DNA of 64,000 nt from Polyangiaceae bacterium (lineage in GTDB: Bacteria; Myxococcota_A; Polyangia; Polyangiales; Polyangiaceae). Location: NCBI GenBank assembly GCA_947475525.1, contig CANJMI010000009.1:62001-126000 (forward strand), given 5' to 3'. The stretch's first letter is position 1; every line of letters begins with the position of its first letter. Under the pieces are notes generated by a model, which searched no databases, was not told the origin of the DNA, and worked only from the letters and a program-made list of their open reading frames with translations. A program made the translations under genes and the position numbers. Of this stretch, positions 56,122 to 64,000 are shown piece after piece.

Positions 56122-57128
<1,007 letters not shown>

Positions 57129-57214
57129 GCCCGGTCATTCGCATGCATTCGAGACGCGGGCAACGTTCTCGCCCGTCCCGCCGCACCCGCGAAACCTGCT
57201 ACAACGGGGCTCGA

Positions 57215-60200
57215 ATGCGGAGCGTTGCGGTCGCGTGGGCATTGGTGTTTTGCGGCTGCGCACGTCACGTCGCGTCGCCGCCGATCCCCGCGTCGCGCCA
57301 GCCTTTGAGCGCCGCGCCAACGTTCATCGGACCTGGCCTCCTTGTCCCGGACATCGATGATTCATTGACTCCCGCTATGTTTCGTCGCGACGGCGTGACG
57401 CTGCATATGACGGCCGGACTTCGCGTCGTGCGGAACGCGAACGGCGACGTGGCGCTCGCCTCCGAGCGATTCAACGGGGCCGTCGAAGCGAGCGAACTAC
57501 CGAGCCGCCTCGGGGGAGGCTTCGTGTTCTACCAGTCGAACGGCCTCGCTACCAAGGTCTGGCGTGCGGACGATTGGACCGGCACGCTCGTCCCGCTGGC
57601 CGGTCTCTCGCGCCATACGGTAGAGCTGGTCGTCGGTTTTGACCGCCTCTACCTTCGGGGCATTTACAACGATATCATCGCGCTCGATCCCGCCACCGGC
57701 GCGCTCATGCCTCGGGGCTCGCTGCCGCTCTCGGCAGAGCAGGGTGCGATGGTGTTTGTCGACGGCTGGCGAGCGGTGGTTGACGCCGAGTTTCGCGGGC
57801 CGCTCGCGACCTTCGACGCGGGTGCGACTTGGCGTGCGGTCCCGGGCCTGACGAACGTGCGCGGCATTGTGGCCGAGGGCGGCGATCCGGTCATCTTCAC
57901 CGAAGGAGGGCGCGTTCGCGTGACGGCAGAGGGGGCGGCACCACTTGCCCAACCGCAGTCCGACGAGGAAGTCGTGGCCGACGACGAGGTCACCCCGGTG
58001 GCTCCACGTGGCCCCCTCGGCCTCAATCCGCTGCGGCTGGCGGTTGAGCGAGGATTGCCCGACTCCGCGACAACGGTACTCGTCGCCGATCACGGAAGGC
58101 TTGCGCGTGTGGCGGTGCCGAGCGGCCGCATCGTTGCGCTCACGGAGCCGGCTGCGCTGCAGCCCGAGGCCGAGTGTCAAGGCGTTCGCGTTGGCGACGG
58201 CCTCGGCTTTGTTTGTGGGACGAGCGGGGGACCGACGTCGATCCTACGTTTCATTGCGCCATATGATTTGCAGGAGATCTGGCGTTTCGAGGAGCCTCGG
58301 CTCGTGGCTTCGAGCGGCAATGGGCAGCTCGTCGTGCGCGGTGCATGTGGCCCCGATGCGATGCCGCCGCGCTCGGTGGCCCGGCCGCTCGTGCGCTCAG
58401 TGCGTGCGCCACTCGTGCGCTCGTTGCCGGCTCCACTCGTGCCGGCCAAGGCGGCTTATGTGCTGCCCAAGCCGGATGACCCTCGGCATCACTGTCTCCT
58501 CGATGGGCGCGGTGCGAAACGCGAGATCGTGGTCAAGGGTGAAGCCGGCTCCGAACGTATTGTCGCGCTGCGGGACGGTCGCGCTGCGGTGGTTGTGCCG
58601 CCGCGGCCCGGCGCCCCGCCGACGCTGAGTCTGCTTCACGGAAGCGAGGTCGCAGGCGTCCCGATTGTGATTCCCGACGAGCCGGAGTTGCTCGCCAACA
58701 TCGCGCGCAATGGGATGTGGCTCGACGGCATGTGGGAGACCGATTCGGGGGCACTCGGCGCGTGGGTCGAAGCCGGCGGGCGCGCGCTCGGCATCGAGGT
58801 TGCGCTGGATGGAAAGGTGTCATTTGGGACGCTCTACGATCACGGTGGCGATGTGGTTTTTTCCGGGCCGCTCGCGCTCGGCGTGTCAGCGGAAGTGGGG
58901 TTCGAATCGGTCGACGGCGGCAAACATTGGACGCGCTTCGTGTTGCCGCGCCTCCCCGATGTTGTCGATAACCGTACGCGCGGTTGTTCGGCTGCTGGAT
59001 GCTCGCTGCGCGGCTGGGTGCGCGCGGGCTGGTTCGAGCCGGGCACCTCGCCCGCTAGCGGCGTCGCAGGCGAAGGCCAGCGGTTCGGCGACCTTCGTGA
59101 GCCTTCCGAAGTCCCCGCGCGCGTCGTCACAATGGACGTGAGACCTTCACTCGAGCTCGTATGTGGGCTGCGTCCGACAACGCCTGCGGCTCCACGGCAG
59201 GCGGCCTCGGTCGCGGCCTCTGCGGATTCGGCCGCGCGTTCGCTTGGCGCGCTCGGTGTCAAAACTCCGGGACTTGCCGCGGCACCGCCGAACACCTGGC
59301 TCCCCTTCGATGACGTCGCGGCTCCGGCGCTCGGGGAAGGCCAACTCGGCGCGGCGCGTGGCTCGCTTCCTCAATCGTCGGTCCGTGCTTCGGTATACGC
59401 TTGGGGACCGAAGGCGACGGCATGGTCGCGCGGTGGAGTTTGGCAGGCGCGCTTCGACGACCGCTTTGCGTCCGAGGGTTGGGTGCGTTCCACCGAACGG
59501 GCGCGGGCTCCGTGGCTCGACTTCGACGCCGCGCTCGAAGCGCTCGGCGGGCGACCGCAGACTGCCTACGCGCAATGGAATGTGGTCCGAGACCCCGGAG
59601 GCCGCGCCGCGCTTATCAGTGTGTGCCGCGCGCATCTGAATCGTTGCGATCTGATTTCGGCTCCCGAAGGAGAAGCGCCGGTGTTGCTCGCGACGGGCGT
59701 GCCCATGCGACCGCCCTCCGAGTTCGGCGCGGTGAGGCTCGGAAATCGCTGGTATTTCCTTGTGGATCTCGGCGCGCCAGGGGGGCTCGAGCTATGGCGT
59801 GCCGACTCGCAGGGCGCATCGAAGGTCGCGCGAATTCAACGCGCCAACCGCCCGCGCAACTTTCCGCCCCACGCACCGGTGCTCACCCGCCGAGCCGATG
59901 GCTCCGGGCTCGGCCTCCTGGTCGCGATGCCGGAAGACAAAGTCGATCGCGGCACGAACATCGATTGGCTCATGTACTCGCTCGATGCGGACACGGGCGC
60001 TGTTGGAGCCCCTATTGCCATCGACCTGCGCTCGCGTGGCGCGGCGCTTCGACGATGCGAACCGGGGGAAGACGGCTGGCTCGCGGAGGTCTCAACGCTC
60101 ATCCCGACGGCTGTGACACTCAAAGGCGCAGCGGCGCACCTCGACGCCTTTGAGTACCGGCTTCGCCTCGAGTCGCGCGGCAGCTGCATCGACGCCATCG

Positions 60201-60337
60201 CGGCGCGTGCGAGCCGCGGACTTTCCACCATGCCCGGGGCCAATTGGAGCGCGCCCGCGCGTCGGCGTCCGATCCCGCTGACGGTCTTCGATTCGCCAAG
60301 CGGCAAGCGCATCGGGCTCGACTGTTTCGCTCCTTGA
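57215..60337 (+). CDS. Very large lipoprotein with Asp-box (BNR-like) beta-propeller segments
   Basis: The 1040-residue product begins with a signal and lipobox (LVFCGC). Most of the sequence is beta-rich with scattered Asp-box-like motifs (ATFDAGATWRAVPG near residue 198 and SVDGGKHWTRFVLP near 565), as in sialidase-like or Vps10-type propellers. A short PLVRSVRAPLVRSLPAPLV run near residue 390 is a local duplication. No glycosidase catalytic set is recognised. ATG 57215 is chosen because it begins the signal peptide. The gene is divergent from asd, 86 bases away, and its stop lies 31 bases from that of the esterase-like gene. Function unknown. Confidence 0.75.
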   Translation: MRSVAVAWALVFCGCARHVASPPIPASRQPLSAAPTFIGPGLLVPDIDDSLTPAMFRRDGVTLHMTAGLRVVRNANGDVALASERFNGAVEASELPSRLGGGFVFYQSNGLATKVWRADDWTGTLVPLAGLSRHTVELVVGFDRLYLRGIYNDIIALDPATGALMPRGSLPLSAEQGAMVFVDGWRAVVDAEFRGPLATFDAGATWRAVPGLTNVRGIVAEGGDPVIFTEGGRVRVTAEGAAPLAQPQSDEEVVADDEVTPVAPRGPLGLNPLRLAVERGLPDSATTVLVADHGRLARVAVPSGRIVALTEPAALQPEAECQGVRVGDGLGFVCGTSGGPTSILRFIAPYDLQEIWRFEEPRLVASSGNGQLVVRGACGPDAMPPRSVARPLVRSVRAPLVRSLPAPLVPAKAAYVLPKPDDPRHHCLLDGRGAKREIVVKGEAGSERIVALRDGRAAVVVPPRPGAPPTLSLLHGSEVAGVPIVIPDEPELLANIARNGMWLDGMWETDSGALGAWVEAGGRALGIEVALDGKVSFGTLYDHGGDVVFSGPLALGVSAEVGFESVDGGKHWTRFVLPRLPDVVDNRTRGCSAAGCSLRGWVRAGWFEPGTSPASGVAGEGQRFGDLREPSEVPARVVTMDVRPSLELVCGLRPTTPAAPRQAASVAASADSAARSLGALGVKTPGLAAAPPNTWLPFDDVAAPALGEGQLGAARGSLPQSSVRASVYAWGPKATAWSRGGVWQARFDDRFASEGWVRSTERARAPWLDFDAALEALGGRPQTAYAQWNVVRDPGGRAALISVCRAHLNRCDLISAPEGEAPVLLATGVPMRPPSEFGAVRLGNRWYFLVDLGAPGGLELWRADSQGASKVARIQRANRPRNFPPHAPVLTRRADGSGLGLLVAMPEDKVDRGTNIDWLMYSLDADTGAVGAPIAIDLRSRGAALRRCEPGEDGWLAEVSTLIPTAVTLKGAAAHLDAFEYRLRLESRGSCIDAIAARASRGLSTMPGANWSAPARRRPIPLTVFDSPSGKRIGLDCFAP

Positions 60338-60368: not shown

Positions 60369-63353
60369 TCAGTTCGGCCAGTCGACCGTTGATTCACCCA
60401 TCGTGCGATAACGCTTGTCGATCTCGCCCATCAGCTCGAGCCACCACTTGTCCATCTGCGGACCGTCGGGGCGAATGCTGTCGGTGAAGAACGACCCGCG
60501 AATGCACTCGGCGTGACCTTCGCCGTCTTTACCGAGCGGCGCGCGGCACCGGCCGTCGACGTAAACGAGGATCGCCTTTTTCAGTCGTCGGTGCTGGGAG
60601 TCGGTGCTGCCATTCATCCAGTTTTTGAGAAAGACGATCGACGCCTGCAGATCTTCGGGCTTCATGCCGTAGCCGTGAAGCATGTAGATCACTGGGTAAC
60701 GCGCGGTTTGCAGATCCTTGTGCGCGTACCCGGGCGGCAGCGAGATCGCGACGGGGCCCGTTCGGCCGTCGCTCGCGGCGAAGTTAAAGTTGCAGTTGCC
60801 AATGATCTGGCACGGATCGACGCCCTCGACGGGATCGTCGCTGGAGCTCGGTGAGAGTGCGCGTGGCGCGTCGGGCCAACGCGAGCCAATGAAGTAGAGC
60901 GCCGATTGCAGTCGCGCGGTCACTTCATTTGCGGTCCCGACGTGCTGTCCCGAACCGTCTTCGACTTGCTTCGCGGAGGGTTCGTCGTGGCCGTACCGCA
61001 TGAACACCGCGCCCGGCATTTCGTCGTAGGCGACCTGCCCGGGATTGTAGCCATTCGGCACCGCGGGATCGAGTCCGAGCGGCATATTGAAGTCGCTGTA
61101 GAACGCCGTCGCGCGGCCGCGTCCAAGGAACGTGCCGGTGAGGTTTCTCGCAGCGACGGCGCAATTGAACAAGTCGCGCGTGCCGCCGTCGGTCCAAAAA
61201 TCGATACGCGAGAGCGCGGCGTCGTCGAGCGGTACCGCTACCGCACTCGGCCATCCGGCGACGATCGAGTGGGGGTCGTAATCCCACATGCGTTGAAGCC
61301 CCGGTGCCGCGGTAAACTTTCCGTCGCCTTCACCGTGGTCGTAGGGGCTCTTGCTCGTCGCGTCGACGCCATCGAGTCCGAAGTCGCGGTAGGGCTCTCC
61401 TGCCTCGAAGCGATGGTTGCCTTCGGTGCCGGTCGGATTGTACTGCGCGTCGTAGTCATCGCCCGAGGGATCGAGGTCGCTTGGGCCGTAGCCTGATTCG
61501 AGGCTGCTCGGCTTGCCGTCGGTGCCGACATCATCCCATGGCTCATGCCCGGCGCGGACGACTGGCTCGAGCTCGTCGCGTTTCCCGTTGCCGTTGTAGT
61601 CGACGGCGAGAGCGACCTCCATCGGCTGGTTGTTGCCGGCGTCGACCCACGTATTCGCCCACGGTGAGAGCGCCTCTTGCTGACTCGCCCCGTCGCAGAA
61701 CGTGATGACAGGGAACGTGCCGTCCGGGTTGAATTCGTCGTCGTAGTAGCTCGAAAACGTCTGATGGTACTTGCAGCGCTCTTTCGCGCATTGGGACCAA
61801 AGTTCCTGCTGGGTAGCCTCGTTCGGATCGTCTTCGAGCGGGTCGATGTAGACGCTGCACGCGTTGTTCGCGTGGTCACCCGTCTGGCTCTGGTGCTTGG
61901 GATCGACGCCCGCAGGCAGGTTGAGTTGCTCGGGGTTGTAACCGTTGGGGTTGCCGAACATCAGCGAGAGATCGCGGAAAATCTGCACGTATTCATTGCG
62001 ATCGAAATTGCCGCCGTTGCCCGTGCGTGGAAACTCGGCCCACCAAGCGTTGAACGACGAGCTGTGTTCGTACGGCTCATCCGACACGGGCATGAAGCGG
62101 CACGCGCCGTCTTTAGCGGGTTCGGTGACGACCCCGAAGCACTCCTCGTCGGGTTTGCAGTCGGCAGTCGTTTTGCACGATGCGGGCGTGAGTGGGATGT
62201 CTTCGAGTTTCGTGCCGGGCTTGATTGGACGGAAACCACCGACGTGATTCTCTGAGAGATGGTCGGCGAGCCACGTCCAGTCGATGGGCCCGCCGAGGGG
62301 CGCGACAACGTCGAATAGGTTGTGATGGCGCAGGCCGAATTGAGCAGTGCCCGCGCCGCCCATCGACACGCCGATCACGGCGCGGTGGGTGAGGCGTCGG
62401 CTCCGGGTCGCGGCTCCGGTGAGCCCTTCGGTGACGACTTGGTAGGTCCCGAGGCGCGGCACCTCGAACCGATAGATCCAGCTTCCGTCCGCCTTGCGGT
62501 AGGGGCGCGGATTGGTCACGGCGATCACGCGCGGCGTTTTGAATTTCGGTCCGCTGTGTACGACGTGCACGTGACGCCAGTGGGCGTTGTCCGGCATGCG
62601 TGCCGGATTGATCGGAACCTCGAGCGCGATGTCGCGCGGAAAGACCTTGTCGGGAGGGCCGAAGGTCACCGCAGGGCCGAGTGCTTTGTGGCCGCTCGGC
62701 ACGATGTCTTCGCCGCACCCAACCGAAGTGTCGAACGGCGCCACGCTCCAGCGGAAGCTGCCCGAGTTCGGGGCGTCGGCGCCTTTAGCGAGGTAGATCA
62801 CTGCATTTGCGAGCGCACCTTTGCCGGCTACGCGACCCGGTTCGCTGGCTGACACGCCGGCGGTGAGCATCGTCGGGCCAGAGCTGTCGGCGTCGGAGCA
62901 GGTGAGGGCGGTCGCGTCGGCCACGTGCACGGCGAGGGTGCCGGTGGCGTCGGTGCCGTCGCCCCGGGGGATCGTTGCGGTGATGGTCGAGTCGCCTTTT
63001 GCCGTGCCCGTAAGCTCGAGCAGAAAGGTCGGTTGCCCGTAGCGAACGGTCTGGTCGCTCGGTCCGGCGACGACGCTTGAATCGCTGCTAGCGAACGTTA
63101 CCGTCGCGGGGTCGCAGACGTCCGGATCGACGACGACGCGTACGCTTCGGTGCTGCCCCGGTGCGAGCACGATGAAGTTTGGCTCGAAGCGCACATTGAT
63201 GAACGTCGGCGCCGGGGGCAGGCACACCTCGCCAAGTGGAATCGCGGACGATGCACCGCCGGAGCCGGTCGACGAGTCGGTCGGCGAACAGCCGGGAGCC
63301 GCGATGGCTTGGAGGACGAACGCTGAGCCAAGCGCGAGAATGAAGCGACGCAT
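60369..63353 (-). CDS. Huge esterase-like lipoprotein with an apparently permuted hydrolase domain
   Basis: The 994-residue lipoprotein (lipobox APGC, Cys22) starts with a Ser/Gly tether and Ig-like strands to about residue 320. The esterase nucleophile elbow GVSMGGAGTAQFG (Ser330) follows. The central part holds calcium-site-like motifs (DYNGNGKRDELEP) and candidate acid and base residues (D722 or D727 in TDGGTRD, H789 in RYGHDEP, H804). The domain start normally lying upstream of the elbow, ARYPVIYMLHGYG at about 893-896, comes after all of this, and the protein ends at KRYRTMGESTVDWPN just where the elbow would be expected. The halves are thus in reversed order. A feruloyl-esterase/EstD-like activity is inferred. 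A good promoter abuts the start. Confidence 0.82.
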   Translation of the reverse strand: MRRFILALGSAFVLQAIAAPGCSPTDSSTGSGGASSAIPLGEVCLPPAPTFINVRFEPNFIVLAPGQHRSVRVVVDPDVCDPATVTFASSDSSVVAGPSDQTVRYGQPTFLLELTGTAKGDSTITATIPRGDGTDATGTLAVHVADATALTCSDADSSGPTMLTAGVSASEPGRVAGKGALANAVIYLAKGADAPNSGSFRWSVAPFDTSVGCGEDIVPSGHKALGPAVTFGPPDKVFPRDIALEVPINPARMPDNAHWRHVHVVHSGPKFKTPRVIAVTNPRPYRKADGSWIYRFEVPRLGTYQVVTEGLTGAATRSRRLTHRAVIGVSMGGAGTAQFGLRHHNLFDVVAPLGGPIDWTWLADHLSENHVGGFRPIKPGTKLEDIPLTPASCKTTADCKPDEECFGVVTEPAKDGACRFMPVSDEPYEHSSSFNAWWAEFPRTGNGGNFDRNEYVQIFRDLSLMFGNPNGYNPEQLNLPAGVDPKHQSQTGDHANNACSVYIDPLEDDPNEATQQELWSQCAKERCKYHQTFSSYYDDEFNPDGTFPVITFCDGASQQEALSPWANTWVDAGNNQPMEVALAVDYNGNGKRDELEPVVRAGHEPWDDVGTDGKPSSLESGYGPSDLDPSGDDYDAQYNPTGTEGNHRFEAGEPYRDFGLDGVDATSKSPYDHGEGDGKFTAAPGLQRMWDYDPHSIVAGWPSAVAVPLDDAALSRIDFWTDGGTRDLFNCAVAARNLTGTFLGRGRATAFYSDFNMPLGLDPAVPNGYNPGQVAYDEMPGAVFMRYGHDEPSAKQVEDGSGQHVGTANEVTARLQSALYFIGSRWPDAPRALSPSSSDDPVEGVDPCQIIGNCNFNFAASDGRTGPVAISLPPGYAHKDLQTARYPVIYMLHGYGMKPEDLQASIVFLKNWMNGSTDSQHRRLKKAILVYVDGRCRAPLGKDGEGHAECIRGSFFTDSIRPDGPQMDKWWLELMGEIDKRYRTMGESTVDWPN

Positions 63354-63399: not shown

Positions 63400-64000
63400 C
63401 TACTTCGGGGGGGGCATTGACGACAACGTCGCGGTCGCCTTGCCGCTCACCTTCGCGACGACGGACGCGCACTGCACGTGGCCGAGCCAGCTCCCGTCGA
63501 ACCCCGTCAGCACGGCGTCGTTGTCGAACAGCGCTTGCCCCGAGGCCTTGAGCGGGATGACGGCGGACGTGTTGCCGGTCGCCGAGGCGTCGCGGGCGCG
63601 CTGCCACAAGGTCTCGAGTGCACCCTCGCACAGCGACTCGACGCATTCAGCGTTGCAGCTCGGTGCGCCGACAAGGCCGAGGTCGCCGCAGCCGACGAGC
63701 TTCGCGAGCGCATCTTTTACGGTCTCGGCGTTCATGGAGGACGCAAGCGCCGCTTCCGCAACGGTCGCGCCGATGTACCGCGAGGGGAGCATGAAGAGCG
63801 CACCGCCGAGGTGCAGTTCGTCATTCGGAGCGACGCCGACGGTCATCACGTAATCCTGCGGAGCACCCGTCTTGTCGCCCGCAAGCGCGCCTATCGACTC
63901 GAGCACGAAGAGGCCGTGCGACTCGTCGAGACTCGAGAGCGTCCCTCGAATTTGAGGTGGCTTCTTCGCGGCTGTTTGCGCCCACGCGATGAGCGCGTCG
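63400..64000 (-). CDS. Hypothetical protein, 5' end beyond the window
   Basis: About 200 residues are visible and the N-terminus is outside. A hydrophobic beta strand (GLFVLESIGALAGDKTG) and YVMTVGVAPNDELHLGGALFM precede a segment with cysteines (VGCGDLGLVGAPSCNAEC) that may form disulphides, and an Ala/Ser-rich end. I do not recognise the family. The Cys-rich part and the setting next to exported lipoproteins suggest a periplasmic or surface protein. Its stop is 46 bases upstream of the esterase-like gene start, in the same direction. Confidence 0.6.
   Translation of the reverse strand, partial: DALIAWAQTAAKKPPQIRGTLSSLDESHGLFVLESIGALAGDKTGAPQDYVMTVGVAPNDELHLGGALFMLPSRYIGATVAEAALASSMNAETVKDALAKLVGCGDLGLVGAPSCNAECVESLCEGALETLWQRARDASATGNTSAVIPLKASGQALFDNDAVLTGFDGSWLGHVQCASVVAKVSGKATATLSSMPPPK

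Follow-up and report, generated by a model that had tools for sequence, protein, structure and literature searches.

A circularly permuted CE1-like esterase domain in a predicted lipoprotein family of Myxococcota

Can an esterase whose second half is encoded before its first still make up one domain? This question is raised by an open reading frame (ORF) of 994 amino acids at positions 60369-63353 on the minus strand of the window (the whole 64,000-nucleotide stretch of Polyangiaceae DNA analysed here), whose boundaries proved exact when the ORFs of the window were checked. Its product carries the motif GVSMGG at residues 328-333 (Ser330), followed much later by HGYG (893-896) and RYRT (981-984), with the C-terminus 10 residues beyond the latter. 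An earlier note had read these landmarks, whose positions we could confirm, as two halves of one hydrolase in reversed order, cut after the RYRT helix and ahead of the elbow strand. Sequence comparisons confirm that the protein holds a circularly permuted CE1/esterase-D-like (PF00756) esterase, and we consider it very probable that the protein as a whole is a permuted serine carboxylesterase of this type, predicted to be lipid-anchored and exported. The elements, all encoded on the minus strand, are collected in Table 1.

Table 1. Elements of the 994-aa protein and its upstream neighbour, in window coordinates.
Element	Residues	Position	Strand	Basis
Predicted signal peptide, lipobox-like A-x-G-C, Cys22	1-22	63288..63353	(-)	sequence by eye
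Ig-like Big_2 domain	45-148	62910..63221	(-)	Pfam and VIA
ZU5-like beta domain	155-312	62418..62891	(-)	VIA fold match
Hydrolase second half, part 1: b5, elbow GVSMGG, b6	320-362	62268..62396	(-)	PF00756/CE1 profiles
Putative catalytic nucleophile	Ser330	62364..62366	(-)	conservation; aligned with CE1 elbow serine
Lid insertion between b6 and b7, ~350 residues	363-711	61221..62267	(-)	normal esterases have no equivalent
EF-hand-like acidic motifs in the lid, probably Ca-binding	585-680	61314..61601	(-)	conserved acids
Hydrolase second half, part 2: b7 GTRD, b8 GQHVG, helix F	712-828	60870..61220	(-)	conservation
Linker, ancestral C- to N-terminus	829-852	60798..60869	(-)	length varies
Hydrolase first half: b1-b4, helices A-B, RYRT helix	853-985	60399..60797	(-)	PF00756; 1jjf
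HGYG oxyanion-side motif	893-896	60666..60677	(-)	conservation
Short C-terminal tail past the RYRT helix, at the cut point, and stop codon		60369..60398	(-)	ORF comparison
Upstream 518-aa lipoprotein gene, running past the window end		63400..64000	(-)	whole gene L106:7401-8957

Pfam places PF00756 on two stretches of the protein, profile positions 8-34 falling on residues 866-901, with a score of 24.7 bits in the native order against a cut-off of 22; when the protein is re-ordered, a single stretch (profile 8-153) results and the score rises slightly, to 27.8 bits. The profile is matched by 12 of 12 members of alignment A1 at E<=0.1, and also by all of the 10 re-ordered cores described below. 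A phmmer search against the PDB aligned the XynZ feruloyl esterase (1jjf) in reversed order, with residues 832-901 on its residues 14-77 and residues 322-355 on its 145-178. Ten diverse homologues were trimmed to the core and assembled either re-ordered (set A2) or in native order (set A4). Against the normal-order ferulic acid esterase 7xrt_A the A2 profile gives one stretch (14-206 on 29-187, E=7.8e-19), which runs unbroken across the join, and the A4 profile gives swapped pieces (173-259, 297-321 and 7-48 on 26-105, 119-144 and 145-187, respectively), which abut at 144/145. The same behaviour was seen in a control, in which 55 homologues were compared with L063, a normal-order esterase from the same genome (G000:C15:100860-101741): the re-ordered profile matches it in one piece (E 8.7e-17), the native-order profile in two pieces, which are swapped and meet at residue 143. 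Both comparisons bear out the reversal of the halves within one esterase domain as well as the place of the cut, and no second esterase domain was found within the 994-aa protein.

The closest sequence relatives are the CE1 enzymes, feruloyl esterases and esterase D of PF00756 (7xrt, XynZ 1jjf, 8z91), which have the same triad motifs but differ in their normal element order, in the place where the chain is cut and in having no comparable large lid. L063, likewise a PF00756 member, resembles the 994-aa protein in its elbow GHSSGG and its GTED and GKHSG motifs, but has the ordinary order, no related lid and a reading frame of 350 amino acids (start not assigned).

The encoded order is b5-b6 with Ser330, lid, b7-b8 with Asp727 and His804, linker, and b1-b4 with HGYG, followed by the stop codon. 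The Ser-Asp-His triad and the GxSxG elbow of CE1 enzymes are present, but not in the ordinary CE1 order of elements. Ser330, aligned with the CE1 elbow serine, is Ser in all 53 ungapped rows of an alignment of 55 distinct homologues, and Asp727 (in GTRD, b7) and His804 (in GQHVG, b8), both located within residues 712-828, are conserved in 55 of 55; the His804 segment aligns with GKHSGHHHRM of L063. At HGYG both Gly residues are invariant, and the first position is His in 50 of the 55 homologues and Pro in five. These five relatives (among them L056, L057, L059 and L060) retain an intact triad; they may have a different activity, and not all relatives would necessarily be standard esterases. 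The earlier note had set about 560 residues with calcium-site-like motifs between the two halves. Such motifs do lie there, but residues 712-828 contain Asp727 and His804 and complete the second half, so that the true insertion comprises residues ~363-711.

We propose that the permutation joined the ancestral N- and C-termini through a linker of ~25 residues (829-852) and opened the chain just ahead of b5; the nucleophile strand would then come directly after the Big_2 and ZU5 domains and the chain would end with helix B. The catalytic site would be rebuilt in space from Ser330, Asp727 and His804, with HGYG along the oxyanion hole. The linker contains Cys848, whose partner Cys854 lies just beyond it (both found in about 35 of 55 homologues), and the tail after the RYRT helix measures a near-constant nine residues in most of the 79 complete ORFs considered below. 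In several relatives (L046, L047, L050, L061) the b1-b4 half contains CNDGxDNDxDGxxD repeats, which are acidic and rich in Cys, and the NCBIfam model acid_disulf_rpt matches two of the ten A4 members.

Full-length relatives occur in 77 of 145 genomes of the order and in 63 of 237 genomes of the phylum; strict peptides located 11 loci in genome_contigs, whose titles are those of myxobacterial or deltaproteobacterial metagenome-assembled genomes. The element order was read with four separate profiles (b1-b4, b5-b6, b7-b8 and lid) after removal of identical ORF copies. Each of the 79 distinct ORFs with all four parts, spread across Myxococcota, has the order b5_6-lid-b7_8-b1_4, so that the arrangement, whose constancy across species the earlier note had suggested checking, is fixed in the phylum; seven partial ORFs fit the same order, and three ORFs reading b1_4-b5_6 are ordinary esterases without a lid. 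Since all relatives examined across the phylum show the same swap, it must be a genuine, ancient rearrangement of a widespread enzyme fold. No family members were found in plasmids, phages or viral contigs, and searches with PF10503 and NF050057 returned other esterases, no permuted relative being obvious among the matches listed.

Structure prediction agrees with this picture. As a fold search with the full-length model was filled with Ig-like and ZU5 matches, leaving the hydrolase unprobed, the alpha/beta-hydrolase domain (residues ~316-994) was folded alone, with AF2 and 12 sequences. The model is of moderate confidence (mean pLDDT 60, pTM 0.61), its core segments being better than the lid, which is poor, as are model residues 580-640. 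VIA-align superimposes it on the Penicillium PHB depolymerase 2d80 with Z 14.1 and rmsd 4.0 over 239 of 318 residues (model 6-668 on chain 30-338) and on 2d81 with Z 13.5. As the 2d80 alignment begins with model residue 6 opposite chain residue 30, model Ser15 (that is, Ser330) comes into register with Ser39, the residue that is mutated (S39) according to the title of 2d81. Other folds reach Z<=7.8, mostly through model residues ~1-520 and the C-terminal half of ordinary hydrolases. The comparison with esterase structures that the earlier note had suggested thus aligns the moderate-confidence model over its full length only with a hydrolase of the same order (2d80/2d81) and half-way with normal-order esterases, the pattern expected for a permuted domain. 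Foldseek on its own returned nothing below E=0.001 for the model of residues 316-994, which is as expected when a permuted fold is compared in sequence order; structural support therefore comes from the VIA alignment of this moderate-confidence model, in which both halves are predicted to form a single fold.

The insertion is placed between b6 and b7, the common position of caps or lids in the alpha/beta-hydrolase fold, and would cap the active site. At 585-596 it contains a loop that fits an EF-hand (DYNGNGKRDELE; DxNxNGxxDxxE with conserved acids), after which follow the motifs DVGTDG...E and DFGLDG. Twelve acidic residues are invariant in 55 homologues (D585, E596, D608, D612, E619, D628, D632, E653, D657, D661, D672, E675) and two are nearly so (D593 in 53 and E644 in 54 of 55); judged from these motifs, the lid is probably stabilised by calcium. 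No relative of the lid was found among solved structures or in Pfam. A lid profile (A5, residues 533-716) searched in 284 genomes found it in 78, with strong, full-family matches in 75. The earlier note had proposed a look for close relatives in normal order: CE1 enzymes do have the normal order, but no normal-order esterase with the lid, a possible pre-permutation ancestor, was found among the 284 genomes. Three weak lid-only matches were rejected as barrel-like proteins resembling LptD, which have in common a short acidic loop that is similar to the esterase lid; these LptD-like barrels come from three genomes (L176, L177, L178), the loop in L176 reading NPDPxxDD...NPxGTEGNGxFDxGEP.

N-terminally of the hydrolase, a Cys near position 22 is kept in those relatives that retain the N-terminus, and the protein is predicted to be a lipid-anchored, exported lipoprotein. 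The Big_2 domain is found by Pfam at E=0.014, which is under its cut-off, and compares with the Big_2-CBM56 structure 7quz at Z 8.1 in VIA. The following domain was not matched by Pfam ZU5 at E<=1; by VIA it has the ZU5 fold, aligning with ankyrin ZU5 (3ud2) at Z 11.3 and rmsd 3.0 over 127 residues (159-312), and it runs straight into the cut end of the hydrolase. ZU5 domains in bacterial surface proteins have the same fold; no conserved autoproteolytic His/Cys motif can be seen in this part of alignment A1. In large bacterial surface proteins ZU5 occurs alongside adhesion modules and enzymatic domains, lipases among them, and such ZU5-bearing proteins, some with lipase domains, degrade or remodel extracellular biopolymers (PMC3482391). 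Big_2 and ZU5 may together form the stalk or binding module of a surface esterase.

On the same strand, 46 bases upstream of the esterase gene, lies the gene of a 518-aa lipoprotein, for which Pfam gives a weak Big_1 match only. At 21 loci a homologue with the same orientation is located upstream, nearly always as the immediate neighbour of the esterase gene; a few of these loci are copies of one genome, so that they represent somewhat fewer genomes. The two genes are likely co-transcribed, and their products probably act together. A convergent ORF of 1129 amino acids (56948-60337 (+), true start unclear) has a weak BNR repeat match; its relatives are found near the esterase in several relatives, but in a different orientation in L006 and L007. 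Farther upstream is the gene of a 467-aa putative lipoprotein without Pfam match (L106:9049-10452 (-)), homologues of which occur close to family members in L001, L002, L004 and L005.

Does this domain act as one enzyme, and does it hydrolyse esters? An assembly or sequencing rearrangement in the source genome is excluded, as the same order recurs in independently assembled genomes of many families within the phylum, in ORFs that are open and without frameshift. Permutations commonly arise by duplication and subsequent loss of terminal parts, and ~500 residues of chain separate the two halves, so one could think of two unrelated esterase remnants that do not form one domain; we regard this as very improbable, since the pieces are complementary, abutting within one residue on normal esterases with neither overlap nor gap, no member of the triad is missing and all three are conserved among the 55 sequences, and both halves fold jointly onto 2d80 in one model. 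Somewhat more weight, though still little, should be given to a permuted member without hydrolytic function, either a mycoloyltransferase-like acyl transferase or a surface protein with a binding or structural role. The large stalk and acidic lid would suit such a role, the insertion may block the site, and the mycoloyltransferase Protein PS1 (E=2.9e-8) and the mycoloyltransferase 6sx4 (Z 7.2) appear among the weaker profile and fold matches, respectively. The triad, invariant where aligned, nevertheless points to catalysis, transferase and hydrolase being indistinguishable by sequence in this case. We infer a surface carboxylesterase that would hydrolyse esters, its substrate most likely being acyl groups on extracellular polysaccharide or polyester.

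The origin of the permutation is the less certain part. In type 2 dPHA-SCL depolymerases, including that of P. funiculosum, the oxyanion hole lies C-terminal to the triad (PMC2666664), so this order of elements is already known. The 994-aa protein shares with these enzymes (Penicillium funiculosum, 2d80/2d81) the sequence of lipase box, Asp, His and then oxyanion region, HGYG at 893 coming past His804, as well as essentially the same cut point just before the nucleophile strand. 2d80, which Hisano reportedly described in 2006 as a circularly permuted alpha/beta hydrolase, is moreover the best full-length structural match of our moderate-confidence model, and x1 of G-x1-S-x2-G is hydrophobic, a feature of all type 2 enzymes (PMC2666664). 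The family could thus derive from a type 2 extracellular PHB/PHA depolymerase, in which case it would hydrolyse polyester and the permutation would go back to an ancestor common to both, a reading that we take seriously but think unlikely. The NCBIfam model NF050059 (e_dPHAscl_type2) matches neither the 994-aa protein nor the other members scanned, and, although the family is present in many of the 96 Myxococcota genomes searched, the model picked up none of its loci there; despite the agreeing order, 2d80 is missing among the PDB matches of the diverse native-order profile up to E=10, whereas normal-order CE1 enzymes are matched by it at E=7e-17. Type 2 enzymes also differ from the myxobacterial family, which has an acidic lid of ~350 residues, probably calcium-binding, and a Big_2 and ZU5 stalk on a predicted lipoprotein. 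As the sequence models do not place the family in type 2 and its nearest relatives are normal-order CE1 enzymes, we moderately favour a second, independent permutation before b5, which arose within CE1-like esterases and became fixed in Myxococcota together with the calcium-type lid and the ZU5 stalk; this origin is not proven, because fast divergence could mask descent from a common ancestor that was already permuted.

A survey of the alpha/beta-hydrolase superfamily mentions only peripheral b1/b2 permutations (PMC11878206), and natural permutations cutting the core beside the nucleophile appear to be rare in these enzymes. Permuted proteins are underscored in single-piece searches, as their halves match only weakly. 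A phylum-wide family with both normal-order and same-order relatives would make it possible to ask if permutation favours the site before b5 and how the evolution of lid and stalk was tied to that of the new termini, and could provide permuted scaffolds for polyester- or feruloyl-ester-degrading enzymes.
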